From positions 496,001-560,000 of the forward strand of contig NZ_RAQK01000001.1 in the NCBI RefSeq assembly GCF_003610455.1: a DNA stretch of 64,000 nt, given 5' to 3'. The stretch is from Sulfitobacter guttiformis (GTDB taxonomy: Bacteria; Pseudomonadota; Alphaproteobacteria; Rhodobacterales; Rhodobacteraceae). Positions within the stretch are counted from its first letter, which is position 1. Every line of letters begins with the position of its first letter. A program made the translations under genes and the position numbers. The notes beneath the pieces are model-generated. The model was not told the origin of the DNA, did no database searches, and saw nothing but the letters and a program-made list of their open reading frames with translations. This document shows positions 6,164 through 19,492 of this stretch, one piece after another.

Positions 6164-6237
6164 GGCGAGTTGGCGGAGTGGTTACGCAGCGGATTGCAAA
6201 TCCGTGTACAGGAGTTCGATTCTCCTACTCGCCTCCA
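6164..6237 (+). tRNA. tRNA-Cys (anticodon GCA)
   Basis: A 7-bp acceptor stem pairs GGCGAGT (6164-6170) with ACTCGCC (6227-6233), followed by discriminator U and an encoded CCA (6235-6237). The anticodon loop TTGCAAA holds GCA at 6196-6198. The T arm has the GTTCGATTC motif. U73 is the usual cysteine identity element. The 3' 47 bases are duplicated at 17063-17109, so this gene is the integration site of the adjacent mobile element; the intact copy is on the integrase side. Confidence 0.97.
6191..6237 (+). repeat. attL core within tRNA-Cys
   Basis: This is the left copy of the 47-bp direct repeat, starting GGATTGCAAATCC and ending CTCGCCTCCA. It covers the anticodon arm, variable loop, T arm, acceptor 3' strand and CCA. 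Flanking bases differ from the right copy on both sides (C before, A after). Confidence 0.93.
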
Positions 6238-6282
6238 AGCCTTTTCAATCACTTAGCAGTCCTTTCAGTTTGCGCGCAGTGC

Positions 6283-6305
6283 GCGGTTTACAGGTGCGTT
6301 TACAG
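6283..6305 (+). repeat. Candidate integrase arm-type sites, left end
   Basis: Two copies of a short direct repeat, GCGGTTTACAG (6283-6293) and GCGTTTACAG (6296-6305), lie between the attL core and the integrase stop. Matching copies occur near the right end of the element. Tyrosine integrases of phages bind such arm-type repeats beside the core. Confidence 0.5.
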
Positions 6306-6311
6306 TTTTGT

Positions 6312-7364
6312 TCACTGTGCGCCCCCTTTGGCCCGTGCCAGCTTCACCAGCACAGCATCGGTTTCGTCGGGTGATACGCGGGCGTAATGCTCGATCACGT
6401 TCGCCGCATTGCGAATTGACCAGCCCATATGGTTGGCAATCTCCGACAGGCTCAGGCCAGCGTCCAAGAGCCGCGTTGCCGCTGTACCTCTGCAATCCTG
6501 CAATCTCAGATCACGGTTCAATCCGGCCTTGTCACGCCATTGGCGCAGACCCTCAGACGCGCGATGCTCAGTCAGTTGCGCGCCGCTGGCATTGGTCAGA
6601 ATCAGCAGTTGCCCGGTGGGTATGGCGTCGATCACTTTTGCGAGTACGGGCGTAATCGGGATATGTGCCAGCTTCTTGCGCTTGTTTGTGCGGACACGCA
6701 GACGCCGCCCGGCTGGCGTGTTCTCCACCGCCGCGCGGGTCAGCTTGATCAGATCGCCCGGACGCAGGCCGGTTTCACAGGCTACGCACAAGATCCGCTG
6801 CACCCACTCCGGCGCGATTGCGTTGATCGCGTCACGGTCGGAACGGGTCCAAACCACGCCGGAACGGTCCACTTCGTACAGGCGGCGCAATTTGTGGCAA
6901 TGATGCTCAGACAGTAAGCCCTCCTCAACAGCCCAGTTCAATACCCGCACCGCGTGAGTGCCAGCCATATCGTGCTGTTTTGGTGAGTGCTTCCAAACCG
7001 CGCGCCATTTGTTTAACTCGCCGCGCGCGCGGCGATCCTCAAAGATAGCGGCGGGCGCAGTCGAAAAGTGCTGAGCAAATCTCCATGCCCACTTCTTCGC
7101 ATCTTCGCGTGATCGCTTCGCTTGCGGCATCGAACTGCTGGACAAGAAATCATCCACCATTTGGGGAACCATGTAATCGGCGGATTTCGGGCGAGCTGTA
7201 GCTTCGGAAAATGCGTGAAAAAAGGCTTTATCTTCCGGAACCTTTTTATCATCTGTCCAGAACCTTGGGCCACCGCGCCAAGCATAGAAATGCCAGCGGC
7301 TCAGGCCATTGGCTAAACGACGGCGAACGCGATGAACATTCTTGGGCAAACTAACTTGCTTCAT
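6312..7364 (-). CDS. Tyrosine-type site-specific integrase
   Basis: The 350-residue phage-type integrase catalyses insertion into tRNA-Cys. Catalytic residues are visible in order: Arg201 in ETGLRPGD, a Lys in TNKRKK (226-231), Asp290-Cys-Arg292 in place of the usual HxxR, His312 in HMGW, and Tyr327 in EHYARV. Residues 60-170 form the helical core-binding domain. The gene points toward the attL junction and is the last gene of the leftward block. Its start overlaps the preceding 67-codon gene by 14 bases. The Asp in place of the first catalytic His is a known variation. The enzyme looks intact. Confidence 0.95.
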   Translation of the reverse strand: MKQVSLPKNVHRVRRRLANGLSRWHFYAWRGGPRFWTDDKKVPEDKAFFHAFSEATARPKSADYMVPQMVDDFLSSSSMPQAKRSREDAKKWAWRFAQHFSTAPAAIFEDRRARGELNKWRAVWKHSPKQHDMAGTHAVRVLNWAVEEGLLSEHHCHKLRRLYEVDRSGVVWTRSDRDAINAIAPEWVQRILCVACETGLRPGDLIKLTRAAVENTPAGRRLRVRTNKRKKLAHIPITPVLAKVIDAIPTGQLLILTNASGAQLTEHRASEGLRQWRDKAGLNRDLRLQDCRGTAATRLLDAGLSLSEIANHMGWSIRNAANVIEHYARVSPDETDAVLVKLARAKGGAQ

Positions 7365-7554
7365 TATCCGACTTCCATTTATCGAATGGGGTAATGTCCG
7401 CTTGATTTACTTCAGCACTGGCATCCGAGGGCATCATAACAACTGTACCGTCAGGCTGGACATGAACGGCAGGCGGCGTTCCCCACGCCGCCTTCCATGC
7501 CTTCAACATGCGGGTCAGGTCCGTTTGCCTCACTGTTGCCTTGATCGCTGACAC
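7351..7554 (-). CDS. Small basic protein next to the integrase, possible excisionase-like factor
   Basis: The 67-residue protein begins MSAIKATVRQTDLTRMLKAWKAAWG, a short helical segment, and continues with VHVQPDGTVVMMPSD, a beta hairpin-like segment. Small proteins with this helix plus PDGT hairpin pattern are common beside integrases in alphaproteobacterial prophages and may act as recombination directionality factors; that role is inferred from position only. It overlaps the integrase start by 14 bases, which indicates translational coupling, and begins 16 bp after the decoration-protein stop. Confidence 0.6.
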   Translation of the reverse strand: MSAIKATVRQTDLTRMLKAWKAAWGTPPAVHVQPDGTVVMMPSDASAEVNQADITPFDKWKSDNEAS

Positions 7555-7570
7555 CGTCTAATCCCCCTCG

Positions 7571-7900
7571 CTACACCGCCGCGCCGTTCAAGCGGACGCG
7601 AACCAAATTTGCGCCGTCAGTCGCGGCCTCAGTGGCAGCGCCGATCAGCTTATTCCCGGATGCGGTGGTGGTGACGTCGGCTGTGTCTGCCTTCCAATAT
7701 ACCTTTGCACCGGGCGTGATCGCGCCCGCAGTCTTCGGCAGCTCGAACACGCCAACCACGGCGGCTTCGAAGGGGTCACCGGCGGCGGCGGCGCTTGCTG
7801 CTACCCCGAAGAGGGAGTTCATCATAACGCCTTGACCGGAGTTAACCGGATCGGAGCTGGTGAAGGTGAGCGTGTCACCGGGCTGTATGAAATTGCGCAT
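7571..7900 (-). CDS. DUF2190-like capsid decoration (cement) protein
   Basis: The 109-residue product starts MRNFIQPGDTLTFT, followed by GVMMNSLFGVAA, GVFELPKTAG and a C-terminal VRVRLNGAAV. This is the small beta-rich DUF2190 pattern of proteins that bind the outer face of HK97-type capsids. Members usually lie beside the major capsid gene, as here with one small connector gene between. The start codon shares a base with the stop of the upstream gene (TGATG), so the two are coupled. No signal peptide is present. Confidence 0.8.
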   Translation of the reverse strand: MRNFIQPGDTLTFTSSDPVNSGQGVMMNSLFGVAASAAAAGDPFEAAVVGVFELPKTAGAITPGAKVYWKADTADVTTTASGNKLIGAATEAATDGANLVRVRLNGAAV

Positions 7901-8133
7901 CAGATCAGTCCTTTCGATGTCTGTGGATAAGTGGTGCGCGGGCGTGGCCCGCGCGTAAGTTTCGAGATTTCGACTTCAATCGCCGCCAAGGCGGCCGCCA
8001 TCTGGGCGTCCGACTTGTAGGTGACGGTATCTTCCCCAAAGGCGACTGTCAGAAGCCCCGAGAAGCGGGCAAGTTGAAGCTCTTTGCGGCGCGCTTTTAG
8101 CTGAAACAAATGGTCTTGATCTTCCTGGGTCAT
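7900..8133 (-). CDS. gpW-like head-tail connector protein
   Basis: The 77-residue protein has an N-terminal helix rich in Lys/Arg (LKARRKELQLARFS), a beta hairpin (LTVAFGEDTVTYKS), a second helix (AALAAIEVEISKL) and a C-terminal tail with PRTTYPQTSKGL. This is the helix-hairpin-helix layout of lambda gpW-type proteins that stabilise packaged DNA and prepare the head for tail binding. It overlaps the capsid fusion gene by four bases (ATGA). Its presence in an element with no tail genes suggests that tails are supplied in trans. Confidence 0.75.
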   Translation of the reverse strand: MTQEDQDHLFQLKARRKELQLARFSGLLTVAFGEDTVTYKSDAQMAAALAAIEVEISKLTRGPRPRTTYPQTSKGLI

Positions 8134-9893
8134 TCCGCTGGAACCTTATGAGCGCCACGCCAATCCAGCCAACCGCATCCGAAGTCGAGAAATGCCCGGA
8201 ATTTCAGCCCCAGTGTATCCCACGCTTCGGTCCGCTGGATCTGGACCCCTTGAGCGGCGGAGAGATAGGCATATTGCATCGCTGCCAGCCGCGCCGGATC
8301 TGCGAATACAAAGCCGGTGCTGTCCGTAATGCGGGGTTCGACCAGCAGGACGAGCTTGCCTGCCATTGTGTTCACGTCGGCAGAGGTCGCGGGATATATC
8401 TCCGCCAAGGCCTTTTCCGCTTCATCCTCGATATCGGGCCCCACCAGCAAGTACCGTGGACTGACGTTGATCAGGGTTTTCCCGTCTAGGCCGGTGCGCT
8501 TGCGCATAGCCTTGCGTGCCGCAGCTATTGCGAGCTGCGCGCCCCCTGAGGTCTCGAAAGCATTTGCCACATCGTGCACATTGCCCCGACTATCGTCGAA
8601 GACAGTAATGCCGTCTGACATGGCCGGGTTATCAATGAGCAGCTTCACCAGTTCATCAGCTTCGGTCTGCGCGGCGGCTTCACCAAGGGCTGCGGTCATA
8701 TCACCCAACATGTTGAGGTCATCATTGATAAGCAATTCACGGGTGACAGTCAGACCGCGCGCAAAGGTCTTCAGACGCATGGATTCGCCGTTCTCCGCGC
8801 GGCTGGTTGCCTTGATCTCGCCATCTTCATTCAGCGGCTCCAAGCGCCCCATTTCACCCAAGCGAATGGCGATGCTTTCCTTGAAGTTCGCCAGCGTTTT
8901 CTGGCGACACAGGGATTTCAAAGGGCTTTCCGCCGCCTTGTAGGTATCGAGCGCCACCTTGTTTGCGGCGTTGGAAACAACCAGGGGAAAATCGCTGGAT
9001 GTATGAGCTGCGCGGGTGAACACTTCATCGGCGGACATGCCACGTGTCGAGATACCTTCGCGTGCAAGGCTTTCAGATGCCATGTCGCGCAGGCTCAAAT
9101 TCACATACTGGCGCGCATCCTCGGGCAGTTCACCACCGGCCATGCGATAGGCAACCGCGTCCGTCTGGCGGCGCGTGATGACCGCCGGATCATCGTTTGC
9201 GGGGGCGTGGCTACGGATGATCGGGGCGCTACGCTGGCGGTTCTGTTGCGCGTCAAAGATTTCGGCCTTGGCGCGGGTCAGGTCCGCACCTGCATCGATC
9301 AGATCATCTGCAATCGCAGGCTCAAGGCCAGCAAATCGCACCAGCGACCTTATTTCTGTGCGGCGGGTCGTTTCGGCTTCATCTGCCGGGGTCGTGTCAA
9401 TCACATCATTGGGCACGGTGGCCTCCTTTTGTCTTAGTGTTGCTGCCGGATCGGCGGGGTTCGAAGTCAGGGTGATTTCAGTAAGCTCCCATTCCATGGG
9501 GCGGCGGGTGCGGGTGCCTCCGCTGGATTGCTCAGACCACCGCTTCACGCGGTACCCGATGGAAACACCGCGAATGGTGCCGTCTGCGATCCGTTGCAAA
9601 ACCGGTGCCACATCATCGGCGGCGCTCAACCGAAGTTTGGCAATCAGCTTGTCGCCCTCTACGCGAACCGCTTCTACTGTGCCCATTGCGTCCCGGACGC
9701 TCGCAGTGCGGTGGCTGTCGAGAACACGCAAATTGGTGGCATTGCTCAAGTCCAGGGTGGAAAAGTCCAGCACTTCGGAGTATATGCCGCGCGCATCCCG
9801 ACGCATGACGGGGTATGTGGTAGCAATGACGGCCTCTACCGTGCGGGTCTCCGGGTCAAAGCTGGCCGGGGCCATTGTAGCATCAAGCGGCAT
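8130..9893 (-). CDS. Prohead protease / HK97-type major capsid protein fusion
   Basis: This is a 587-residue two-domain protein. Residues 1-160 are an HK97-type serine prohead protease: His61 in LDSHR and Ser111 in RGVSIGY are the likely catalytic pair, and the LTSNPADPAA motif follows. Residues 160-250 form a charged, helical scaffold-like linker. From about 255 to the end is an HK97-fold capsid subunit (YKAAESPLKSL, GLTVTRELLINDD, a C-terminal FRAFLDFGCGW). Such single-chain fusions are known in alphaproteobacterial phages, where the protease releases itself during maturation. A strong AAGGAG site precedes the ATG at 9893. The frame is intact, so the head could assemble. Confidence 0.9.
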   Translation of the reverse strand: MPLDATMAPASFDPETRTVEAVIATTYPVMRRDARGIYSEVLDFSTLDLSNATNLRVLDSHRTASVRDAMGTVEAVRVEGDKLIAKLRLSAADDVAPVLQRIADGTIRGVSIGYRVKRWSEQSSGGTRTRRPMEWELTEITLTSNPADPAATLRQKEATVPNDVIDTTPADEAETTRRTEIRSLVRFAGLEPAIADDLIDAGADLTRAKAEIFDAQQNRQRSAPIIRSHAPANDDPAVITRRQTDAVAYRMAGGELPEDARQYVNLSLRDMASESLAREGISTRGMSADEVFTRAAHTSSDFPLVVSNAANKVALDTYKAAESPLKSLCRQKTLANFKESIAIRLGEMGRLEPLNEDGEIKATSRAENGESMRLKTFARGLTVTRELLINDDLNMLGDMTAALGEAAAQTEADELVKLLIDNPAMSDGITVFDDSRGNVHDVANAFETSGGAQLAIAAARKAMRKRTGLDGKTLINVSPRYLLVGPDIEDEAEKALAEIYPATSADVNTMAGKLVLLVEPRITDSTGFVFADPARLAAMQYAYLSAAQGVQIQRTEAWDTLGLKFRAFLDFGCGWLDWRGAHKVPAE

Positions 9894-9921
9894 CTTTGCG
9901 CTCCTTAGTTGATGAAGGTGC

Positions 9922-10221
9922 CTAATGGCACTTCGGGATCACGCGGCGAATACATCCCTTGGGGTAACTTTCACCCGGAAAGCGACGTTCGACTTCCAAA
10001 ATGAAATCATCTCTAAAAGCATGTTCCTTGCTGGTCTTTGGTTGGCAAAGCCCCATTGCAAGGTTCCACGCCAAAGAGAAATTAGTCCGGCCGTCTTTTC
10101 GAAAAAAGGAATAATAAGGAATAATCAAGGCAAAATTGATCTGTCCAATCCAGGAGTTTTTCGTAGATTTCTTCCTGTGTATGCGGCCTTGTTCCATTGG
10201 GGGAAGGTATTCAGTCGGCAT
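9922..10221 (-). CDS. Hypothetical protein between portal and capsid genes
   Basis: The frame of 99 codons starts inside the last codons of the portal gene (ATGCCGACTGA overlap), which suggests coupled translation. The sequence is Lys/Arg and aromatic rich (NSWIGQINFALIIPYYSFF) with no recognisable fold. Composition is noticeably more AT-rich than its neighbours around 10080-10150. It may be an acquired gene or an untranslated spacer left by decay of a separate protease gene. I cannot decide, and no function is proposed. Confidence 0.4.
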   Translation of the reverse strand: MPTEYLPPMEQGRIHRKKSTKNSWIGQINFALIIPYYSFFRKDGRTNFSLAWNLAMGLCQPKTSKEHAFRDDFILEVERRFPGESYPKGCIRRVIPKCH

Positions 10222-11629
10222 CGGCGCTCTCCTTTGGTTTGGTTGTGGCGAAGTTCAGGCCCAGCTCGGCTTCACGGGCGCGATCTGACTGAATTTCTTC
10301 ATCGATATCGTCGGCGTTCCACCCCAGCTCATTGATCGCGTGGGTGCGGCTGGTCAGGCCAAGGGCAATCGCCTTTTCGGTCGCTTCCAGATCCTTGGCG
10401 GGGTCTACCTGTTGCGGGCGCGGCATGATCCAATCGCAGGGCGTATCGGCGGAAGCATCGATGCGGCCCGCGAGAATTTCCAACGCCAGCCAGCGCCGCC
10501 AGACAGGGCGAAGAATTTGAGGCACAAGCGTATTGTGCTGCACCTGGTCGATGCGCGCCCGGAAGGGTATCAGGCCAGCCCGGAGGCTCGAATAATTCGC
10601 ACCGGTCAGGTCACCGGAAAGCAGGAATTCTGGCACCCCAAGCGCCGCAGCCAAGGCTTGCAGGTTCATCCGCATCAGAGCGGGTGCGTCCTTCAGCTGT
10701 TCAGGTGAACTGAATGTGACATCGGTGCCAAGCGGCAAGCGGGTCATTGCCCCCGGCTCCCAAACCGGATCAGAAAACAGCTCTTCGTCACCACCTGTGT
10801 CAGTCGCGTCAGTGATAAATGCCGCGTTCATAGCAGCCATCTTTGCGGCCAACAGTAGAGCATCCCGGTACTGGTCGAATTCGTTGGCGGTCAGGACCGC
10901 AGCGGCCAGCCATGAAAGGCCGCGCACTTGACCGGCGCCGATCGGGTGGAAGACGTGCAGCACATCCCCAGCATCCACCCGAACGGCGGGTTCATGACCA
11001 ATGAACACAGAATCGGGACGTTCAGGAAAAATCCAGTAGGCTGCCCGCCGCCCTCTCGCGTCGAATTCCACGCCCTGGACGATCTGCCGTCCGTCGCTAA
11101 GGATTACAGTCTTTGCCGCGTCCAGGTGATCCGGCGGGATGACTTGGATTTGCAGCCCCTCAGCCGTGTTGTGCATCAATGCCAGTGCTTCCCCACGCAC
11201 CACGATATCTCTGGCCATCTGCTCCATCAGCCCGCCAAGGTCGGTTCTTTCCGCGAAGTCTGCTGTCTCGCAGAAACGGTCAAAAGCGAAGTGCAGCCCC
11301 CGGCGTTGTTCGCGATCAATCCCGCGAACATTCGGGCGCGGCCCTGTGCCAACCAGGAAGGCGACAAGGTTTGCCACCGCATTGGAGATATAGGGATTGT
11401 TGACCGCCTGATATGCGGCCCGACTGCCAACCAGAGACAGCCCCGCCGCAACCTCGCCGTTGATCGGTCCGAAGGTACCCATACCACCGCCGCGCCGTCC
11501 GCCGGTTGCGGCGTCGAGGCTGCGACGATGGTTGCCACCCGCACTTTCATCTTGACCCATAAGCAAGGTGATAGCGCGGGTGACGAGGCCGCGGACCAAA
11601 TTTGGAGAAACCATCCGCGGCCTATTCAT
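10211..11629 (-). CDS. Phage portal protein, lambda gpB family
   Basis: The 472-residue product forms the dodecameric ring at the head vertex through which DNA is packaged. Family features include SRAAYQAVNNPYISNAVANLVAFLVGTGP-type text after residue 70, a VRGEALALM segment, DAGDVLHVFHP, and a C-terminal LTGANYSSLRAGLIPF motif, all seen in lambda-type portals of alphaproteobacterial phages. The start at 11629 is chosen because ATGAATAG overlaps the stop of the preceding gene; an ATG ten codons earlier is possible. Length is close to the family norm and the frame is intact. Confidence 0.93.
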   Translation of the reverse strand: MNRPRMVSPNLVRGLVTRAITLLMGQDESAGGNHRRSLDAATGGRRGGGMGTFGPINGEVAAGLSLVGSRAAYQAVNNPYISNAVANLVAFLVGTGPRPNVRGIDREQRRGLHFAFDRFCETADFAERTDLGGLMEQMARDIVVRGEALALMHNTAEGLQIQVIPPDHLDAAKTVILSDGRQIVQGVEFDARGRRAAYWIFPERPDSVFIGHEPAVRVDAGDVLHVFHPIGAGQVRGLSWLAAAVLTANEFDQYRDALLLAAKMAAMNAAFITDATDTGGDEELFSDPVWEPGAMTRLPLGTDVTFSSPEQLKDAPALMRMNLQALAAALGVPEFLLSGDLTGANYSSLRAGLIPFRARIDQVQHNTLVPQILRPVWRRWLALEILAGRIDASADTPCDWIMPRPQQVDPAKDLEATEKAIALGLTSRTHAINELGWNADDIDEEIQSDRAREAELGLNFATTKPKESADAD

Positions 11630-12236
11630 GTTCGTCGTCCATGTGGTGGCCGTCCGCAAAGACTTGCTTGAAGATCATGTGAGGTTGAAAAAACAGCGCC
11701 GTGGCCGGAAGAAATTCCGGCCCCATCATTCCTCGGCGAGTATTCCACCCTCGCTCAGCGCGCCATTCTTCATCTTCTTTCCAAGCGAAGAAGCACTCCA
11801 GATCGCCCGTTTGACGATCATCATCAGGATCGTTGTTCTCCAAGATTTGCTCGATGTCGCGAATTAGCAGCTCTAGAATTTCTGTGGCGTCCGTAACGGA
11901 AACCCGAACGTCAGATGAGATTGACGCTAAGCTAGCGATACGCACAGCGTCTCGATAGCTGAACAATCGCCATTTCGATTCACTGTGATTTTGATCTGCG
12001 TCCAGCGAAAGCTGTTTGCGGGTAAGCCATGTTCGAAGGGTTGCAGGTTTCACGTTCGTAAGAAGAACCAGCTTACCGAAGCCAAACCTTGGGCGCGAAA
12101 GGAACGCGCGATTCCTCTCAATATTGAGAAATCGCTTCTTACGGTCGGCTTCGAAAAGCTCGGACGCGCCGCTGATAGCGGACTCTCTCACCCGCTGCAC
12201 TTCGTAATCGCCTTTTTCTCCATCTTCGTCAGCCAT
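11622..12236 (-). CDS. MerR-like helix-turn-helix protein in the head operon
   Basis: The 204-residue protein carries a MerR-type winged-helix segment (LVLLTNVKPATLRTWLTRKQL, then RLFSYRDAVRIASL). An acidic stretch (NNDPDDDR) and a C-terminal DGHHMDDEHE tail follow. The ATG at 12236 has a GAGAG site at good spacing; an ATG ten codons upstream (12266) lacks one. The gene overlaps the portal start. A DNA-binding protein here is unexpected: it could regulate the element or a helper phage, or act in packaging. It is not a typical small terminase, since a better candidate is present elsewhere in the element. Confidence 0.65.
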   Translation of the reverse strand: MADEDGEKGDYEVQRVRESAISGASELFEADRKKRFLNIERNRAFLSRPRFGFGKLVLLTNVKPATLRTWLTRKQLSLDADQNHSESKWRLFSYRDAVRIASLASISSDVRVSVTDATEILELLIRDIEQILENNDPDDDRQTGDLECFFAWKEDEEWRAERGWNTRRGMMGPEFLPATALFFQPHMIFKQVFADGHHMDDEHE

Positions 12237-12340
12237 AGGTGCACTCTCAAAGTCAAAACGCTTCATTGACTTTTTTTGCCACGCTGCTCCTAGAATTGCA
12301 AGACAAATTCAACGCATCGCTTTTAGCGCCTGCGACCCGC

Positions 12341-12721
12341 TCATTTCAAGGTCCCCGTCAGGGCGCGGGCTTCCTTCCAGAGCGCGCCGGTTTCCCAGTC
12401 GGAGAAAGTGTCGCCACTGCAGGTATCCACTACTAGCTTTGCCGCGAAGTCTGCGGCGCAGGTAGAGGGCAGCGCCATCAACTCACTTTCGATCTCGTCA
12501 GAGCGACGATAGAAAAGGCGCTCAAGATCTTCGTCCACGTCCTTCCCGTTGGCTGCGCGGACGTGCACTGAAGCAGCACTTAGGATCGCCTGATGTTGAC
12601 TGAAGAGGCGCAGGATCGGCGTGTCATCTTCGGCCCTCGCCATAGCGGGCGAGGAAGCCGTCGATCCCACTGCAATGGTCGATGCGGGCAAGGACGCAAT
12701 CATGGCGCGACGGGTCATCAT
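12341..12721 (-). CDS. Prophage-associated protein with a Tat-like N-terminus
   Basis: The 126-residue protein begins MMTRRAMIASLPAS, followed by an Ala/Ser-rich hydrophobic stretch ending in PAMARAED, resembling a twin-arginine leader. The rest is helical (DTPILRLFSQHQAIL, DEDLERLFYRRSDEIE). Similar short proteins with an RR-leader recur in rhodobacteral prophages, but I know of no assigned function. It overlaps the preceding 60-codon gene by four bases (ATGA). An exported product from a head-only element would be unusual; the leader may equally be a structural mimic. Confidence 0.6.
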   Translation of the reverse strand: MMTRRAMIASLPASTIAVGSTASSPAMARAEDDTPILRLFSQHQAILSAASVHVRAANGKDVDEDLERLFYRRSDEIESELMALPSTCAADFAAKLVVDTCSGDTFSDWETGALWKEARALTGTLK

Positions 12722-12900
12722 TGTGAACCCCCCTCGATCAAGATCATTGCTTCCGTAAGTGCAGAGTGAGCCTCCAAGCGGTTGCGCTCCGATAAATCTG
12801 GTGCTTCGGTCGCGTCCAGGGCGATAAGGATCATATCGCGGATGACTTGAGAACTTGCATCAGGCAAGGTGGCGCTGTTCGCGCAGGCGCGTTTTTTCAT
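12718..12900 (-). CDS. Small hypothetical protein, first gene of the leftward head operon
   Basis: The 60-residue protein begins MKKRACANSATLPDASSQ and is mainly helical (MILIALDATE, HSALTEAMILIEGG). A good ribosome site (GGAGAAAA) precedes the ATG. It is the first gene leftward from the divergent control region at 12901-12981 and is coupled to the next gene through ATGA. Its place directly beside the repressor is where phages often keep a Cro- or antirepressor-like function, but no helix-turn-helix is visible. Confidence 0.55.
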   Translation of the reverse strand: MKKRACANSATLPDASSQVIRDMILIALDATEAPDLSERNRLEAHSALTEAMILIEGGSQ

Positions 12901-12922
12901 TGTGATTTTCTCCGATCATGGT

Positions 12923-12979
12923 ATCAATGATTTACGTTGATAATCCTCGGCAGACGTGCCGTCAATGAAAAACGTTGAT
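12923..12979. promoter_or_regulatory. Two operator-like repeats in the divergent repressor region
   Basis: Two 19-bp copies, at 12923-12941 and 12961-12979, share TCAATGA-N3-ACGTTGAT (15 of 19 bases identical, 38 bp apart). Each is an imperfect dyad with TCAA/TTGA ends. They fill the 81-bp gap between the leftward head operon and the rightward XRE gene. The second copy ends two bases before the XRE start codon, as expected for an autoregulated repressor. Confidence 0.65.
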
Positions 12980-12981
12980 TA

Positions 12982-13209
12982 ATGAAACCAGCACAATCCC
13001 GCGCGGCCCGAGGCCTACTCTCAATGACCCAAACTGATCTCGCAAAAGCGGCGGGTCTCGGTCAGTCAACAGTCATAGATTTTGAGAAAGAACGCAGAGT
13101 TGTTTCCGACGCTGCCGTCACCGCAATGCGCTTCGCACTCGAAGAGGCTGGTGTAGACTTCATCCAAGAAAATGGCGGGGGCGCTGGCGTCCGCCTGAAA
13201 AGACGATAG
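12982..13209 (+). CDS. XRE-family HTH repressor of the element
   Basis: The 75-residue protein is a minimal Cro/CI-type helix-turn-helix: MTQTDLAKAAGLGQSTVIDFEKERR covers the two helices and turn, and a short C-terminal FIQENGGGAGVRLKRR hairpin follows. Proteins of this size often act as transcription regulators. An in-frame stop lies two codons upstream, so the ATG at 12982 is the first possible start. It has no visible ribosome site, and the transcript may be leaderless. The second operator-like repeat abuts the start. It probably represses the leftward head operon and itself. Confidence 0.88.
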   Translation: MKPAQSRAARGLLSMTQTDLAKAAGLGQSTVIDFEKERRVVSDAAVTAMRFALEEAGVDFIQENGGGAGVRLKRR

Positions 13210-13215
13210 GAAACA

Positions 13216-13497
13216 ATGATCATGCGGAATAGTTGGACCGGTAGCGAACTTGACCAGCTCGAAAAGCAAGTTTCGAATTTTGAATTCGTCGCGTTTAAGA
13301 AGAAATTTGATAGGTCAAGTGATCGAAAGAAAGCAATCAAAGCCGCCGCGCGCGTTGCCGACGATCAAAACATACGATTCATCCTTGGCGGCTCGATAGA
13401 TTATCTTTTGTCACGGCCAGAGCTTGTTAACGCGGCTATCAGCAAGGCGAGAGATCACATCGCAACCCTTCGCGCCAACGGTCCAAGGCTCAATTGA
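13216..13497 (+). CDS. Hypothetical partner of the XRE repressor
   Basis: The 93-residue, Lys-rich protein starts six bases after the XRE stop with a fair ribosome site (AGGA), so the two genes form one transcript. It has an N-terminal helix (GSELDQLEKQVSNFEFVAFKKKF) and a later segment FILGGSIDYLLSRPELVNAAISKAR. No family is recognised. Position suggests a modulator of the repressor, an immunity factor or an antitoxin/toxin-like partner; none is supported by motifs. It ends 15 bp from the convergent terminase gene. Confidence 0.6.
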   Translation: MIMRNSWTGSELDQLEKQVSNFEFVAFKKKFDRSSDRKKAIKAAARVADDQNIRFILGGSIDYLLSRPELVNAAISKARDHIATLRANGPRLN

Positions 13498-13512
13498 GCA
13501 CAGGCCGTCGAT

Positions 13513-15297
13513 CTATCCGGTCAACCATTTCGAGCGATAGACGTTCTTAGGCTTAACCTGATCTTGAAGCCCACCGGCGCGCAGCTGCGCTTCACGCTCT
13601 TCGAAATTCACGTGAACCACCTGTCGCGCCGCAATGGCATAAACAACACAATCGAGCGCCTCAGCTCTACGCCCTGGCACCCGCTCAAATCTCCTTTGCG
13701 GCTGCCCCCGCACATAGCGCGTCACTGCCCTTTCGCTGGTCAGTTGCTCATACCACACAGGCGGAAGATCACCTGAAAAGCGGATCGATCCAGCCCGCGT
13801 CAACCGGGCCATGATTGCGGTCTTGATCCCGTCCACGCCGATCAGCCAAAGACGCGCAACCGACTTCTTGCGGGATTGTGAAGGTTCAATGAATGGGCGG
13901 GTTCCCGAAACTCCCTTTCCAGCCATGATCCGGCGGCGCTGGCGGGGGCCGCAAAATGACATGACTGCCTCCATGGTCACACCGTCGCCTGCATCGATCA
14001 CCGCTGCATCGATACCAAGCGAACCGCCCAGGGGGTGTTTCCAGCGTGTCTTTAGCAAGCCGTCAAGCTCTGACCAAGTTTCATCATGATCCCAATTCCC
14101 CCATATGACCTTATGCCCAAGGATGAATGCCGTTTCGTCCTTTGCGGAGCCGATGAAAGTGCATTCAAGCCGGTCGTGTTGTGTGTCGATTCCGGCAGCA
14201 ATCGTAAGGACTTCTTCCGGCAACGATTCCAGACCGAAAGCCTCATTGCGCCCGGCCAGCTCCGCTTCGTCAAGCTCATCACCCGCACCGCTCCAACCTT
14301 GACCCAAGATGGTATTGACGAAGGTCTGCAATGTGACCGGGTCTTTTCTGGCTGAGAGGAATTCCCGGACCAACTGTGGCCAAGATGCATTTGCATGAAG
14401 CGATACCAAGGCGTTCAACTGGAAGCCTGCATGGCCCTTTACTTCAGGACGGGTTGCGCGCCATTGCCCCTGAGCTACCATCTTGAGCTTGTGGCGTTCT
14501 GCGATCTCTTCACTGCAATGCGGGCACTGCCAGCGCGCGGTTTCCGGCTTGCCTTCGTCCCAACGGATAGCCCCCCACAGAATTTCAGAGAAAGCGCCAC
14601 ATTCTGGACAGGGCACCTCGAAAATGCGCGCGTCTGACTCGGCGAAGGCGCGCAGCACATTACTGCTTTCACTGTGAACGGGGGTGCTGCCCATGACGAT
14701 CTTTCGATCAGGGAAGGACAAGGTGCGCTTTTCCGCAAGAAGAATGGGAGATCCCTCGCTTGTCGGGTCCATGCCATCCACCTCATCCATGAACAGCACC
14801 CGGACGTTGTGCCGGCGCAAGTTGCGGGCGGCTTTCGCAGCGACCACCTTGAGCGATCCACCCGGAAACCGTCGAGACATGAGCGTGTTTCTGTCATCGC
14901 CGTCGACTTCATAGGCCAGCGCCTTCGCCACCGCTGGTGATGATGCAAAGATAGGCTCAACGTCCGACACCATGTAATCCCGACAGTCAGCTTCAGCGGG
15001 CAAAAGGCAAAGGATCGGGGCGGGTTCATTGGCAACAAAAGACGCGACCGCCGATGTAAGGAGCGTTGTAAACCCTACCCGCACCGGCTTGACCAGCGTC
15101 ACCCGTTCAATGCTCGCGTCTCCGATAGCGTCCGCGATTTCCCGTTGGAAGGGCCAAAGCTGGACTGGCCCTGGCTGAGCACTGACTCCCTCGGGAAGAA
15201 CAATCTCTGATTCAATCCATTCGGAAAGCCGGAGGCGGGGCGGTGGAATAAGGGCGCGCAAGGCGCTGGCCAGAACCTGTTCAATTTCCATTGCCAA
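13513..15297 (-). CDS. Phage terminase large subunit, GpA family
   Basis: The 594-residue packaging motor has an N-terminal ATPase and a C-terminal nuclease. The Walker A position reads KPVRVGFTT (residues 70-78), the deviant form usual in GpA terminases. Walker B is VLFMDE (167-172). A zinc-ribbon-like pair CPEC (230-233) and CPHC (258-261) follows. GIDTQHDRL and VIDAGDG supply nuclease acidic residues. Length is normal and the frame is unbroken. The start overlaps the end of the small subunit by 17 bases. GpA enzymes commonly act at cos sites. Confidence 0.95.
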   Translation of the reverse strand: MAMEIEQVLASALRALIPPPRLRLSEWIESEIVLPEGVSAQPGPVQLWPFQREIADAIGDASIERVTLVKPVRVGFTTLLTSAVASFVANEPAPILCLLPAEADCRDYMVSDVEPIFASSPAVAKALAYEVDGDDRNTLMSRRFPGGSLKVVAAKAARNLRRHNVRVLFMDEVDGMDPTSEGSPILLAEKRTLSFPDRKIVMGSTPVHSESSNVLRAFAESDARIFEVPCPECGAFSEILWGAIRWDEGKPETARWQCPHCSEEIAERHKLKMVAQGQWRATRPEVKGHAGFQLNALVSLHANASWPQLVREFLSARKDPVTLQTFVNTILGQGWSGAGDELDEAELAGRNEAFGLESLPEEVLTIAAGIDTQHDRLECTFIGSAKDETAFILGHKVIWGNWDHDETWSELDGLLKTRWKHPLGGSLGIDAAVIDAGDGVTMEAVMSFCGPRQRRRIMAGKGVSGTRPFIEPSQSRKKSVARLWLIGVDGIKTAIMARLTRAGSIRFSGDLPPVWYEQLTSERAVTRYVRGQPQRRFERVPGRRAEALDCVVYAIAARQVVHVNFEEREAQLRAGGLQDQVKPKNVYRSKWLTG

Positions 15298-15772
15298 CCT
15301 CGGTCAAAATGCTGCGCAGAGCGCGATCTATGGCGTCGATAGTTTGCGGATCAATATCGGGCAGATCAGACCGCATACGGGAGGGGACAGCCAAGATACG
15401 GGCGCGAAGCTGGCGCAGAGCATCTCCCCAGGTGCGCTCAACATCGGATGCTTCGACCAGCTCGCCGCGTAGCTTGGCGTTCTTGATCGCTTGCGCGTCC
15501 GCCTGTTCTTTGGCAAGCCGTGCCCGTTCGTTAGTCAGGGTCACCGCCTGGTCACCCGTGCCCCACCCTGCCGCCATGCTGCGAAGATGCTGGACGTACG
15601 CGCGCGTTGTAGCGGTCAGATCATAGCAGTCATGCGATAGATGAACCGCAAGGCCGCGTTTCTTCAGATCGGTCAGGGCGGCGGGTGAAATGTCGAAGAG
15701 CGCGCAAAGATCCTTGCCGCCTACGGTGTGCAAAGGCTCTTCCCCAAGGGCCAATTCTGACAATATCTTCAT
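15281..15772 (-). CDS. Phage terminase small subunit, Nu1-like
   Basis: The 163-residue protein has an N-terminal winged-helix-type segment (TVGGKDLCALFDISPAALTDLKKRGL), a central helical region rich in Ala, Lys and Glu (LTNERARLAKEQADAQAIKNAKLRGELV) and a C-terminal oligomerisation-like helix. This is the Nu1 layout: it recognises the packaging site and recruits the large subunit. The ATG at 15772 has an AAGGGG site. It overlaps the large-subunit gene, giving a normal small-then-large order. The packaging site would be expected nearby, probably in the structured non-coding stretch at 16080-16363. Confidence 0.85.
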   Translation of the reverse strand: MKILSELALGEEPLHTVGGKDLCALFDISPAALTDLKKRGLAVHLSHDCYDLTATTRAYVQHLRSMAAGWGTGDQAVTLTNERARLAKEQADAQAIKNAKLRGELVEASDVERTWGDALRQLRARILAVPSRMRSDLPDIDPQTIDAIDRALRSILTEVGNGN

Positions 15773-15875
15773 GTATTTAACCCCTTAGTAATTTCTAAAG
15801 CGGCTGGTATCTCGGGAGTCGCTATACCCGCATGGGGGAAAGATAGGAGGGACCCGCAACAGGCTATGAATGAGG

Positions 15876-16073
15876 TCACGCGATCGACCTCGCTATCTTT
15901 GACAGCTCATAAGCGATCTCGCTCTTCTCTTCGTGGAAGCGGTGCGGGTCGCGGTGGCATACACTGAGGCGCTGCACACGAGTGACAATCACGCGGATGT
16001 GCTCGCCAATGTGCTCGAAATCCTCTCTCTTCTTTTCTTTCATCTCGCGTATCTTTCTATCTATGAGCTTCAT
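15876..16073 (-). CDS. Small charged hypothetical protein
   Basis: The product has 65 residues from the ATG at 16073; a TTG two codons earlier is also possible. It is very rich in Lys, Arg, Glu and His (RKIREMKEKKREDFEHIGEH; SVCHRDPHRFHEEKSEIAYE) and predicted to be one or two long helices. No family is recognised. It lies 103 bp upstream of the terminase small subunit on the same strand. A nucleic-acid-binding or small regulatory role would fit the composition but is not shown. Confidence 0.45.
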   Translation of the reverse strand: MKLIDRKIREMKEKKREDFEHIGEHIRVIVTRVQRLSVCHRDPHRFHEEKSEIAYELSKIARSIA

Positions 16074-16079
16074 GCTCAA

Positions 16080-16363
16080 TGGTGAGGGTCTGAGCTGAGG
16101 GCATAGGGCGACTAAGGCCGGGCAATGCCCAACCCGTCCCTAGCCCTCAACGTGAAGTCCTTGCTCAACGGAGCCGGGCCATCGCATTGGGCGCACAGGT
16201 CGCAGCGTTCGCGCCTGTGCTTGCTCACTTCTTCACCGTTGAACGCGACGGCAGGGCCTCAGGGATTGAGCTTTAGGGCTCCCTTTGCGCTTTGACCCAC
16301 TCAAGATAACGCAGATACATGTGGTGCCTCTCCAGTCGTCCGAAAACACCCCACGGACGCGGA
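16080..16363. other. Structured non-coding stretch, candidate packaging (cos) region
   Basis: No supported gene lies here. Two strong inverted repeats are present: 16097-16108 pairs with 16138-16148 (GAGGGC/GCCCTC plus AGGG/CCCT, with a bulge) around an inner GGGCAATGCCC, and GCACAGG (16193-16199) pairs with CCTGTGC (16214-16220). No T-run follows either repeat, so they are poor terminators. The region is upstream of the terminase genes, where lambdoid packaging sites often lie. Confidence 0.4.
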
Positions 16364-16618
16364 TTAGACGGCGTCAGACCCTTTCTCTGTCTCAATCAAT
16401 TCAATGTTGTCTGGCGTACTGTCGGCACTGCCCCCGAAGCGGCTCTCATTGATCAGCTTTTCAATGATAGGCTGCTGCCGTGCTGTCGGTTTCCATTTGG
16501 GGTTCTTGGCTTGACGCAAGATCGAGCGCGCAAAGTTCACGCTCCACTGGTCACCGTGGCCGCGTGTCACTCGTTTGAGGTGGTAGAGCTGCTCTTCAAG
16601 CTGGGCTTCGGTGATCAT
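16364..16618 (-). CDS. Hypothetical phage protein
   Basis: The 84-residue protein starts MITEAQLEEQLYHLKRVTRGHG and contains WSVNFARSILRQAKNPKWKPTARQ, a pattern I recognise from small proteins in rhodobacteral prophages and plasmids, with a conserved W-F-S-I-Q-K-W-K-P spacing. No function is assigned to it. The start overlaps the stop of the preceding gene (ATGA), so both are in one translational unit. The tail (ELIETEKGSDAV) is acidic. Confidence 0.6.
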   Translation of the reverse strand: MITEAQLEEQLYHLKRVTRGHGDQWSVNFARSILRQAKNPKWKPTARQQPIIEKLINESRFGGSADSTPDNIELIETEKGSDAV

Positions 16619-16851
16619 CGGACCAACTCCCCCTTGTAAACGCCGTACAGGGCAGCATTGGCGATTTGGTAGGCTTGATCATCTTCGAGGGTCATCAGGC
16701 TGGCATATGCCAGCTTTGCGCGCTCCTCTGGCTTCAACCGCGCCAGTAAGACGATGATTAGACCGCTCCAAGCCTCAGATGTGCCAAGGGTAAGGACAAA
16801 CCCTAAAGCCTTTGCCGCGCGCTTATGGCGGTCTTTTGCATACAAAGACAT
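16615..16851 (-). CDS. Hypothetical protein at the right end of the element
   Basis: The 78-residue protein begins MSLYAKDRHKRAAKALGFVL and is helical, with a hydrophobic centre (SGLIIVLLARL) and a C-terminal ANAALYGVYKGELVR. The frame stays open through the right attachment site as far as 17214, so the true start must lie inside the element. ATG 16851 best fits the compact fold; ATG 16929 would add a basic 26-residue extension. The gene is coupled to the next one by ATGA. No family is recognised. As the first gene from the right boundary it could be an early function, such as replication or induction control. Confidence 0.5.
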   Translation of the reverse strand: MSLYAKDRHKRAAKALGFVLTLGTSEAWSGLIIVLLARLKPEERAKLAYASLMTLEDDQAYQIANAALYGVYKGELVR

Positions 16852-16969
16852 TGCATTCCGGCGCGGCTTCGGTTTACCTGTGCCAAGAGATTTTTGATGG
16901 GTCTCTGTATTTCTAGCGCCGTGTTCCATGTCAGTGGACGCGGCGTTTTCTTTTTCCGCACTCGTTTGA

Positions 16970-17033
16970 GCGTTTACACTTGTCGTGCAACCCATTGATA
17001 TCCCGTCGTGAACAGATCGGGTACGTTTACACA
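16970..17033 (+). repeat. Candidate integrase arm-type sites, right end
   Basis: GCGTTTACAC (16970-16979) and ACGTTTACACA (17023-17033) repeat the GTTTACA core found in two copies beside attL, in the same orientation. The right pair lies 30-93 bp inside the attR core. After excision these sites would lie on the two arms of attP. Confidence 0.5.
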
Positions 17034-17062
17034 GTTTTTGTTTTGAATCAGCACCATGATCT

Positions 17063-17109
17063 GGATTGCAAATCCGTGTACAGGAGTTCGATTCTCCTAC
17101 TCGCCTCCA
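17063..17109 (+). repeat. attR core (tRNA-Cys 3' fragment)
   Basis: This is the right copy of the 47-bp direct repeat, identical to 6191-6237. It lacks the 5' acceptor strand and D arm and is therefore not a functional tRNA gene. Confidence 0.93.
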
Positions 17110-17819
17110 TATGCTCCAATGACCTAATTGTTTTTGCTTTGGAGTGGGCACCGCCGCGAATTGGTTTGATTCTGCGGACGGACGCCGAGGCGTAGTGTGC
17201 TGGAGACGCATCAAGATCTAGCAGGAAACTATGCGTTTTCGACCGGATCAGTCACGCCTACAGATGAGCGCATTGTAGTGACATCAGTGACTGAACTGTT
17301 TTCCGGCCTACTTGAATATAATTTGGGCTACTAACCGCGATGCCCTGACTTTAGTTGTCCAATGGGAAACTGCATCGCATCATCACTGAAACAGCCAATT
17401 ATGTATCAATCAGCATTTCGACCGGGCAGGTGACAATTGTGCCAGACTTAGCGGACAGTTGTCGCATTTGCTGCTTTGAACGATGTGAGTGGCGGTTACG
17501 CGCGGAGACCCAATCCGCTTCAGACGCGGCATTGAATCACCCACCTGAACCCGCTGATGCTGCCGTCTATTATCAACGCTTGCTGCTTTTGGTTGCATAT
17601 TTGCAGTTTCGACGACACGCCACGGTCTCGGTATTTCACCTTGATTGCGCCCTGCCGGACTTGGGCGGCGTTGCGCCAATCCAAACCTTCCTGGCGCGCA
17701 GCGACCGACATTTGATATGAACACATCCTCTAGATCCGAGGCTTTAACATGCTTGTCTCATGTCGCGTCAGCGGGTACTCAGTGAACTCTGAATTGGGGG
17801 AAAAATCATCGATCAGATC
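17110..17819. other. Gene-poor stretch outside the right attachment site
   Basis: I see no supported gene here. Opposing frames at 17355-17720 (+) and 17410-17724 (-) overlap each other, lack ribosome sites and match no family I know. The stretch may hold decayed genes from earlier integrations next to the tRNA site. Confidence 0.6.
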
Positions 17820-18020
17820 GTGAAAAAACGGCAACAGCGCGGCAGGGCCATCTGGCTTGCAGCTATGGCGATAACAGTGCTGGCAGGCGTCGCTGTGCCT
17901 TATGGGGTGTTGTCAGACAGCCCGATGATCATGGCCGTGCCGCTGTTTTGGTTGCTTTTCGGAGTGGTGGTGATCGGCCTGATCGTCATAGGCGTAACGC
18001 GTTGGAGTGACGAGGCGTGA
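17820..18020 (+). CDS. Small membrane protein of a symporter pair (DUF3311-like)
   Basis: The 66-residue protein begins at a GTG after a GGGGGAAAA stretch that is rather far upstream. It has a basic N-terminus (KKRQQRGR) and two hydrophobic segments (WLAAMAITVLAGVAV; AVPLFWLLFGVVVIGLIVIGV). Small two-helix proteins of this type are routinely encoded just before SSS-family sodium symporters and are thought to be accessory subunits. Its stop overlaps the symporter GTG start (GTGA), which indicates translational coupling. Confidence 0.75.
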   Translation: MKKRQQRGRAIWLAAMAITVLAGVAVPYGVLSDSPMIMAVPLFWLLFGVVVIGLIVIGVTRWSDEA

Positions 18021-19492
18021 TCGCGCCGGGCCTTATATGGGCGGTCATTGCGATTTTTGCGGCGTTCGGCTTTGTCATTGCCGTGCGCGCGGCGCGCGCG
18101 AATTCTGGGTCGGCGGGTGATTACTATATCGGAGGACGGGACATCGGCGGCATGGTAGCCGGACTATCTTATGCCGCTACGACTTATTCCGCCTTCATGC
18201 TCGTCGTTCTGACAGGCCTCACCTACCGCGGCGGGATCGGCGCGCTCGGCTTCGAGTTAATCTATTTCGCTGGTCTGTCCTTGTTAGTTATCTTTGCACC
18301 GCGGTTTTGGCTGGTGGGGAAGCGTTGGGGATTCATTTCACCTGCCGAGATGATCGGTGCGCGCTACGGCAGCAGGGGTGTCGCCCGTGCGATGGCCGTT
18401 GTAAGTATTGTGTTTCTTCTGCCCTATTGCACGACGCAGATGGCCGGGATCGGGCTGTTGCTGTCAGGTGTGACGGGCGGAGGAATCAGCCTCTTTCAAG
18501 CGGTCGCGACAGGTGCAGCACTTGCAATGTTCTGGGCCTTGCTCGCGGGTCTACGCTCCGTGGCTTGGACCGATGCTGCGATGTCGGTTGTTATGTTCGT
18601 CTCAGGGCTGCTGGCGGTGGCGTTTGCAATCGCGGCGTTGGGCGGTCCGGCCAAGTTCATTGGTACCCTGCAGGCGGATCATGCCGAATGGCTAACGGTT
18701 CCGGGGCCCGGACTCTGGAGCCTTCCGACCTTCATCGCGCTGTCGCTTCCGTGGTTCTTCTTCACCCTCTCCAACCCACAGGTCAGCCAGCGGTTGTTCA
18801 TCCTGCGGGATTTTAGGGCCATGCGCCGGATGATCCTCTGGGTCCTCGGGTTCGGCTTTATCTTTACGCTCGTTGCCGTGATCTGGGGGCTGGCCGCGCT
18901 TCAACTTGCGCCAAATATCGCAAACACTTCGATGGCGACACCTGCCCTTCTTTCCTCGGGGGTCATCCCGACATGGGTGGTGCTGCTCTTAATCATCGGC
19001 ATTCTGTCGGCAGCGATATCAACACTGGATTCAATCGCGCTGACCGTCGGCGCGATGATCGCCCGCGACGTTGTGCCAAGCGTGGAAACCCAAAGCGATG
19101 CGCGACAGATATTTTCCGGTCGCCTTGTCATCGTTGCAGTAGTTTTATTCGCCAGCTATTTTGCGCTAGAGCAGGCTGCCATTGTGGATCAACTCGCGGC
19201 GCTTTCTGCGGCGGGTCTTATGGTCTCTGTACCACCAATCGTCGGAGCCTTTTTCTGGCATCGCGGTACAGCCGCGGGCGCCTTTGCGGCCATCATCGGC
19301 GGCGCGGCCGTCGCTGTCTGTCTCGCCATATTTCTGAAGGTCAGTGTATTCAATCCGGTTCTCCCCTTCACTGTCGGGGGATTGAGTGCGGCACTTTTCA
19401 TTGTTGTGAGCCTTTTAACAAAGCCACGGGCAAATGCGCTGGATTTCCAGAGCGAGATTGCCGACCAACTCACCTATCACCGTGTCTGGTGA
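18017..19492 (+). CDS. Sodium:solute symporter family permease
   Basis: The 491-residue inner-membrane protein has about 13 hydrophobic segments. Family marks of the SSS (sodium:solute symporter) superfamily are GDYYIGGRDIGG near residue 35, AATTYSAFMLVVLTG in the next helix, GFISPAEMIGARYGS, and STLDSIALTVGAMIARD in the later sodium-binding region. The start is a GTG coupled to the upstream small membrane protein. Substrate cannot be read from sequence; carboxylates, amino acids and solutes such as pantothenate or proline are all carried by relatives. No catabolic gene is adjacent to suggest one. Confidence 0.9.
   Translation: MIAPGLIWAVIAIFAAFGFVIAVRAARANSGSAGDYYIGGRDIGGMVAGLSYAATTYSAFMLVVLTGLTYRGGIGALGFELIYFAGLSLLVIFAPRFWLVGKRWGFISPAEMIGARYGSRGVARAMAVVSIVFLLPYCTTQMAGIGLLLSGVTGGGISLFQAVATGAALAMFWALLAGLRSVAWTDAAMSVVMFVSGLLAVAFAIAALGGPAKFIGTLQADHAEWLTVPGPGLWSLPTFIALSLPWFFFTLSNPQVSQRLFILRDFRAMRRMILWVLGFGFIFTLVAVIWGLAALQLAPNIANTSMATPALLSSGVIPTWVVLLLIIGILSAAISTLDSIALTVGAMIARDVVPSVETQSDARQIFSGRLVIVAVVLFASYFALEQAAIVDQLAALSAAGLMVSVPPIVGAFFWHRGTAAGAFAAIIGGAAVAVCLAIFLKVSVFNPVLPFTVGGLSAALFIVVSLLTKPRANALDFQSEIADQLTYHRVW

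Follow-up and report, generated by a model that had tools for sequence, protein, structure and literature searches.

Head-only mobile elements in Rhodobacteraceae: an intact member in the tRNA-Cys gene of Sulfitobacter guttiformis as a probable capsid-forming phage satellite

What kind of mobile element carries the genes of a phage head and its packaging machine beside an integrase, with no recognisable tail gene? The question is raised by a 64-kb window of Sulfitobacter guttiformis (64,000 nucleotides, positions 496,001 to 560,000 of contig NZ_RAQK01000001.1), in which an exact repeat search delimits a mobile element of 10,919 bp (window positions 6191–17109) flanked by two identical 47-bp repeats. 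A genome-wide search with the tRNA region finds this repeat in only two places, 6191–6237 and 17063–17109, and the left copy forms the 3′ portion of a tRNA gene, since ARAGORN places tRNA-Cys, the integration target, at 6164–6237 on the forward strand. Coordinates, exact repeats and tRNA prediction agree with an earlier note on this DNA, which had described a unit of about 10.9 kb between perfect 47-bp attachment (att) repeats in tRNA-Cys. The same stretch is already present in IMG/VR as a viral contig of 10,684 bp (L033). The analysis presented here identifies a widespread head-only family with an intact member in the window, a probable capsid-forming satellite that would work like the capsid-forming phage-inducible chromosomal islands (cf-PICIs) but with a different head. 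The element is probably an intact integrated satellite that would assemble a small head and the packaging machinery from its own genes and obtain its tail from a helper siphophage.

Gene calls in the element rest on Pfam and PHROGs (20 open reading frames, ORFs, scanned with PHROGs and 19 with Pfam, some small ORFs being left out). Leftwards from the right repeat, the order is U18, two small ORFs, a conserved non-coding block, the small and large terminase subunits (TerS, TerL) and an accessory region, followed by a 214-aa helix-turn-helix (HTH)-like protein, portal, protease–capsid fusion, gpW-like adaptor, cement, a 67-aa protein and the integrase. TerS (15281–15772, minus strand; phrog_57, 7.4e-32) matches PF07471 (Nu1) at 5.4e-7, just under the Pfam cut-off, and TerL (13513–15297, minus) is of the gpA type, with ATPase and nuclease (PF05876, 4.4e-84; PF20454, 3.7e-83). 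The portal is of lambda type (10211–11659, minus; PF05136, 3.4e-73; PDB portal 8gtd, 6.2e-25) and is followed by the prohead protease–major capsid fusion (8130–9893, minus; phrog_4523, 2.3e-149; PF25209, PF04586), the gpW-like head–tail adaptor Ad1 (7900–8133, minus; phrog_2545, 4.5e-13), the head cement or decoration protein (7571–7900, minus; PF09956, 1.6e-29; phrog_122) and a tyrosine integrase (6312–7364, minus; PF00589, 2.7e-12; phrog_1, 2.1e-18). The adaptor family profile meets a phage gpW profile of 14 rows, two of them head-only, at an hhalign probability of 99.6. The XRE-type regulator (12982–13209, plus; HTH_3, 4e-6; phrog_7241) sits in the accessory region between terL and portal, which refines the control region proposed earlier. 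All of these genes have open reading frames, bearing out the inventory of intact integrase, XRE, terminase pair, portal, protease–capsid fusion, connector and decoration genes that had been drawn from the letters. The claim that tail, lysis and replication genes are missing likewise holds for the ORFs scanned, not every small ORF among them; no HNH family was found in that set either.

The anatomy is not peculiar to this genome. With the capsid as query, 93 of 394 Rhodobacteraceae genomes match at E ≤ 1e-30, and the element type, assigned by capsid identity and coverage, occurs in 42 of the 394, 40 of which were read with at least 7.5 kb of context; G360 and G062 are seen only as 3.5- and 4.8-kb loci holding portal, capsid, adaptor and cement. 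The context reading left aside most tailed-type matches and about ten further genomes in which the match was partial or weaker. The recurrent order is terS–terL–accessory–portal–capsid–adaptor–cement, followed in lineages A and C by the integrase; lineage B has an integrase-like gene at the opposite end. Where A and C have their integrase, lineage B has a 455-aa protein without clear family, after cement and before tRNA-Met (e.g., L084, 11869–13236, minus). Hosts of head-only elements include Rhodovulum bhavnagarense, Thioclava sp. SK-1, Thioclava atlantica and Palleronia caenipelagi. Twelve further loci (L099–L111 minus L107) are RcKvothe-type tailed prophages, in which gpW precedes the portal and the tail genes come after cement. 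Head-only anatomy recurs in all three lineages and in other alphaproteobacterial families: 13 of 385 genomes in a class-wide sample match the capsid at E ≤ 1e-50, two of them in Rhodobacteraceae, and six loci from other families were read (L159–L164). L159 is att-bounded in tRNA-Gly (11,811 bp) and L161 in tRNA-Arg (10,888 bp, 20-bp repeat, terL behind cement), both without a tail match; L160 belongs to the lineage B type, L163 is a head set in which no att was found, and L164 is a full phage. The genome search for the same head order without tails that the earlier note had proposed finds such elements, also in other tRNA genes.

The absence of tails was assessed with profiles built from the tailed loci and run on the ORFs of 51 head-only loci (27 of lineage A, 13 of B, 11 of C) and the 12 tailed ones; two of the lineage A loci are IMG/VR copies of others, and several are cut by contig ends. 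Among the tailed loci, the profiles recovered two minor tail proteins (12 and 11 of 12), tube, chaperone and tape measure (11 each) and two distal tail proteins (9 and 11), with peptidase and TIM-barrel profiles matching six. None of the seven tail profiles matched any head-only locus apart from L080 (G101:C1, about 2.97–2.99 Mb), a damaged lineage B locus with tube, chaperone and tape measure fragments before the portal, whose gene content marks it as a hybrid between element and tailed prophage. Part of this contrast follows from the design, since the tailed label rests on tblastn with the same phage proteins, and the profiles recognise tails like those of the tailed relatives, so that other tail types would escape them. 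Among 109 hand-picked accessory ORFs from 16 elements, no tail family appears in the listed 25 of 71 PHROG and 25 of 31 Pfam families, one Pfam match being gpW. The head–tail attachment protein may not be missing throughout: its profile, which matches all 12 tailed loci, also finds 11 of the 51 head-only ones, mostly weakly. Lysis profiles matched none of the 12 tailed loci, leaving no positive control, and are uninformative for the head-only loci.

Many relatives also lie between att repeats. In lineage A, att repeats bound the window copy, L045, L046, L047, L050, L051, L052, L054, L055, L056, L058, L059, L061, L062, L066 (imperfect), L068, L070 and L092; in lineage C, L087, L088, L089 and L098, and also the distant L107. 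Two of seven extended lineage B loci have 47-bp repeats in tRNA-Met, and a third has a 17-bp match. No att repeat was found in the remaining head-only loci, some of them cut by contig ends. Repeat lengths range from 14 to 51 bp (just 14 bp in L046, L047 and L070), and ten tRNA families are involved (Cys, Ser, Phe, Met, Arg, Glu, Lys, Gln, Pro and Gly); the L098 repeat does not lie in a tRNA gene. Element sizes are 10.2–12.8 kb in lineage A, except for L059 (15.0 kb with an insert), 9.9–11.3 kb in C, 9.7 kb for L107, and 17.4 and 18.2 kb in B (19.9 kb if the third att match is right). Two pairs from different genera, L045/L066 and L046/L047, are 93–96% identical in two blocks per pair, and their outer alignments end at or within the tRNA around att. 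These end points support the boundaries and a recent movement of copies between genera.

The head and packaging genes also bear the mark of selection. Against L066, the ratio of nonsynonymous to synonymous substitution (dN/dS) is 0.06 for terS, 0.06 for terL, 0.15 for portal, 0.11 for capsid and 0.09 for cement, with dS near 1, values that indicate purifying selection. Seven relatives share with the element a conserved stretch of about 80 bp upstream of terS. Within the window, GGGTCCYTCC with GCGGG after it has a single occurrence, GGGTCCCTCC-N-GCGGG, 83 bp upstream of terS (15827–15855, minus), a position kept in relatives. GGGTCCYTCC lies 73–143 bp upstream of terS in 17 of 26 lineage A and 8 of 10 lineage C loci with TerS (25/36, with L092, double-listed by the script, counted in A; 23/33 minus three IMG/VR copies), and 25 of its 28 occurrences in A and C loci fall there. 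Within 700 bp of terS it is absent from all nine B and all 11 tailed loci, though it occurs elsewhere in six of the latter. Of the four loci from other families that hold TerS, one has the motif. The motif is read as a candidate cos site. In the tailed prophages L099, L102, L105 and L109, the same motif as in the elements, GGGTCCTTCC, lies some kilobases before terS and may be their cos site.

A gpW-like protein is present in 50 of the 51 head-only loci (missing in L054), and its gene stands behind the capsid, whereas the tailed relatives have it before the portal. The elements thus keep a portal plug without a clear next layer, which predicts the point at which a helper tail would attach. Replication genes occupy one position upstream of terS and are mutually unrelated, of PrimPol-AAA, PrimPol-VapE or D5 type; most lineage A relatives carry a primase/helicase there. 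From these genes, we infer helper use, packaging, particles and excision in the following form. A helper would relieve XRE repression, the integrase would excise the element, and host or helper would replicate it in the case of a copy without primase. TerS and TerL would then cut at the motif and fill a head of about 11 kb, the gpW-like protein would close the portal, and the helper's attachment protein, tail terminator and tail would complete a particle able to inject the element into a new cell, where it would re-integrate.

In an IQ-TREE capsid tree of 64 rows, 13 tailed prophage and RcKvothe rows stand beside lineage C with weak support (83/65), Psul1 lies apart on a long branch, and lineage A is not one clade. 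In a FastTree capsid tree of 51 rows to which six further tailed phages were added (L107, Psul1, L057 and 17 thinned rows, 20 in all, being dropped), head-only and tailed rows fall on two sides of one branch with support 97. Lineages B and C are supported in both trees and A in one; a single origin of head-only capsids is possible on this evidence. A TerL FastTree of 49 rows, from which short rows and four named rows were dropped and which carries a long-branch warning, groups A with C and places B, together with L089, on the tailed side. The window integrase is 75% identical to that of the lineage C locus L090, with capsids sharing 37%.

An exact search for the 47-bp att in IMG/VR returned 11 contigs. 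L167 and L170 (the latter with two att copies 10,990 bp apart) resemble the window element in this tRNA-Cys att and in the head-then-integrase layout and carry PrimPol genes, as relatives do, but differ in a head set of HK97 type, comprising TerL, capsid, protease and portal; in L170, the protease was confirmed as S78. The integrases of these two contigs find kin in L054 (81% identity) and L066 (63%); the window's own integrase has no full-length match to either. One site and kindred integrases thus serve two unrelated head types, which suggests head-module swapping between HK97-type and gpT-type elements. L167 and L170 may represent the true cf-PICI type among these bacteria. It is tempting to see here an old, separate alphaproteobacterial lineage of capsid-forming satellites, in which heads split once from tailed phages and at least three lineages swapped terminases, integrases, replication genes and whole head types, with an own cos site, a relocated gpW plug and helper tails recruited at the joint between gpW and attachment protein; this larger scenario is about as likely as not.

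Four other explanations compete with a tail-borrowing satellite. The one that survives best, though very improbable, is a complete small virus that needs no helper, either tailless or with a tail from unrecognised genes such as the 126-, 99- and 93-aa ORFs. Several accessory ORFs do lack a family, and the tail profiles see only the relatives' kinds of tail, but accessory ORFs are not conserved between elements, no unassigned gene has the size of a tube or tape measure, and retention of the adaptor suggests that something is attached to the portal. Marginally less credible is a resident island for defence or interference, with head genes that serve to poison phage assembly and with passive spread only. 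Its appeal lies in the GmrSD and several PADLOC families found, along with IS21-type genes, among the relatives' accessory ORFs (each in one or two of the 109); terminase, portal and cos motif kept together under selection, and the recent copies in different genera, speak against it. That deletions stripped a tailed prophage of its tail, lysis and replication genes is less probable again. Tailed prophages with kindred heads occur in the same family, and the hybrid L080 carries tail fragments, but the compact order and att-bounded size are shared by many loci and tRNA genes, gpW is relocated, the head genes show purifying selection, and head-only and tailed capsids separate in the FastTree tree. 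Because the same anatomy recurs in three lineages and in other families, the element is not regarded as a decayed prophage, and the deletion origin is rejected as largely refuted; the earlier note had argued against random prophage loss, and had named as decisive the case of relatives that are all full tailed prophages at this site, from which the comparative loci depart. Least probable is a domesticated head cluster packaging host DNA in the manner of a gene transfer agent (GTA), since despite a GTA-type TIM-barrel gene elsewhere in the host (G000:C2:630460), integrase, att repeats and varied tRNA sites mark a mobile element with a specific motif at terS.

For the satellite with a borrowed tail, the helper is the natural next question. 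RcKvothe-type siphophages and prophages share with the element the same kinds of TerL, portal, protease–capsid fusion, cement and gpW, but differ in having complete sets of tail and lysis genes, gpW ahead of the portal and a length of about 41 kb; they are candidate helpers, not the same kind of entity. Their tail tubes occur in 95 of the 394 family genomes and are commoner in those with an element (18/42 versus 77/352; p=0.0036, uncorrected for relatedness and mobile-element load). A second prophage in the own genome (G000:C2, about 72–110 kb; L121, L112, L122) holds a distantly kindred protease–capsid fusion, portal and TerL, and a methyltransferase; it is a possible resident helper.

Several observations weigh against the satellite reading. 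No particle, excision or helper has been seen; no terminal repeat of 20–300 bp occurs among the loci examined, and no metagenome contig with a circular junction was found. Tube co-occurrence is driven by lineage B (10/15, p=0.0004) and is not significant for A (8/21, p=0.10), with C at 5/11 (p=0.10). The own genome has no RcKvothe-type tube by the query that matches the 95 genomes, so a resident helper of this type is rejected, and the second prophage is not named as helper because ten scanned ORFs gave one weak (major-tail) match. No replication gene was recognised in the window copy, nor in L045, L066 and L068. Some relatives are damaged: terL is cut in L049, the capsid is split in L056, and the portal is split by an insert in L059 and also split in L036. 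L162 (G755) is a 17.8-kb unit with 48-bp repeats in tRNA-Gly that joins a kindred head to a tape measure and a minor tail protein; as read from its genes, it is a compact tailed or intermediate form.

The remaining ORFs of the element are small. On the minus strand, they comprise U18, its first gene (16615–16995; clusters with L054 and L068, five database proteins), which may truly start near 16851, the database copies being 78 aa; an 84-aa ORF (16364–16618; kin in L039/L068); a 67-aa ORF (15876–16079; partial match to L054); a 60-aa accessory ORF (12718–12900; weak kin in L039/L068); and a 126-aa accessory ORF (12341–12721) without Pfam or PHROG match, whose N-terminus, judged by eye, resembles a Tat signal. 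The 214-aa protein (11622–12266, minus) shows a weak HTH of MerR type; its positional counterparts in L054, L066 and L068 match MerR_1, and a homologue search gave nothing beyond its own database copy. A 99-aa ORF (9922–10221, minus), doubtful as coding, has no family above threshold and, among compared loci, no kin except the IMG/VR copy. The 67-aa protein between cement and integrase (7351–7554, minus) has kin in L035, L037, L038, L052 and L056, and a 93-aa ORF adjoins the XRE gene (13216–13497, plus); neither has a family match. Outside the element, 39 of 40 genomes of the genus have a conserved left flank, tRNA-Cys included. The right flank (17110–18600) matches five of the 40, the own genome included, and lies far from tRNA-Cys in G394; the two flanks are therefore not demonstrable as neighbours at an empty site. 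In the genus, tRNA-Cys usually has another neighbour than this right-hand stretch, and older islands may be present at the site.

How does the element compare with known systems? In the broad sense of a phage satellite, it is mobile, integrated and incomplete for virion formation, with helper dependence suggested by the missing tail and lysis families. Gene transfer agents are head and tail clusters fixed in the chromosome without integrase or att; the element has an integrase and att repeats and lacks a tail. Phage-inducible chromosomal islands carry their own replication module. Among titles and abstracts on satellites in Rhodobacteraceae and Alphaproteobacteria, none was found describing this head-only family, most subscription papers lying outside that scope, and PMC12324425, in its accessible part, concerns a different element. 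A different head type in about one tenth of the sampled family genomes would mean that the lifestyle is very old, or that it evolved or was reassembled on at least two occasions, and the head–tail joint, with its parts kept and parts borrowed, becomes testable in harmless genera that can be cultured, Rhodovulum and Thioclava among them.

Earlier descriptions of satellites with a head of their own and a borrowed tail concern an HK97/GTA-like head, with a further set known from Streptomyces. The Streptomyces satellites MulchRoom and MiniFlayer likewise have their own terminase, portal, capsid and adaptor (PMC10690885), but are set apart by direct terminal repeats, virulent helpers and actinobacterial hosts. 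As far as the accessible texts go, cf-PICIs are integrated small islands with genes for capsid, protease, portal, connector, TerS and TerL and none for a tail (PMC10690885), averaging 14 kb (PMC10803314), with a capsid grouped with that of the Rhodobacter GTA (PMC12846349). The window element resembles them in its capsid, protease, portal, connector, TerS and TerL, integrase and att, in having no tail, and in a size near that average. The earlier assignment to this class stands for a head-only, capsid-forming type of element that is not a deletion product, but class membership finds no support in the form proposed: no primase or other replication module was found in the window copy, nor the HNH endonuclease of the cf-PICI packaging set, and its host is outside the host list in the accessible part of PMC10803314. 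What also appears to separate the two, as cf-PICIs are described, is the head, on account of which the element is not placed in that class; it combines here a gpA/Nu1 terminase and a lambda-type portal with a gpT-like protease–capsid fusion, and a profile of 16 element capsids matches only Mu-gpT-like chains in the PDB.

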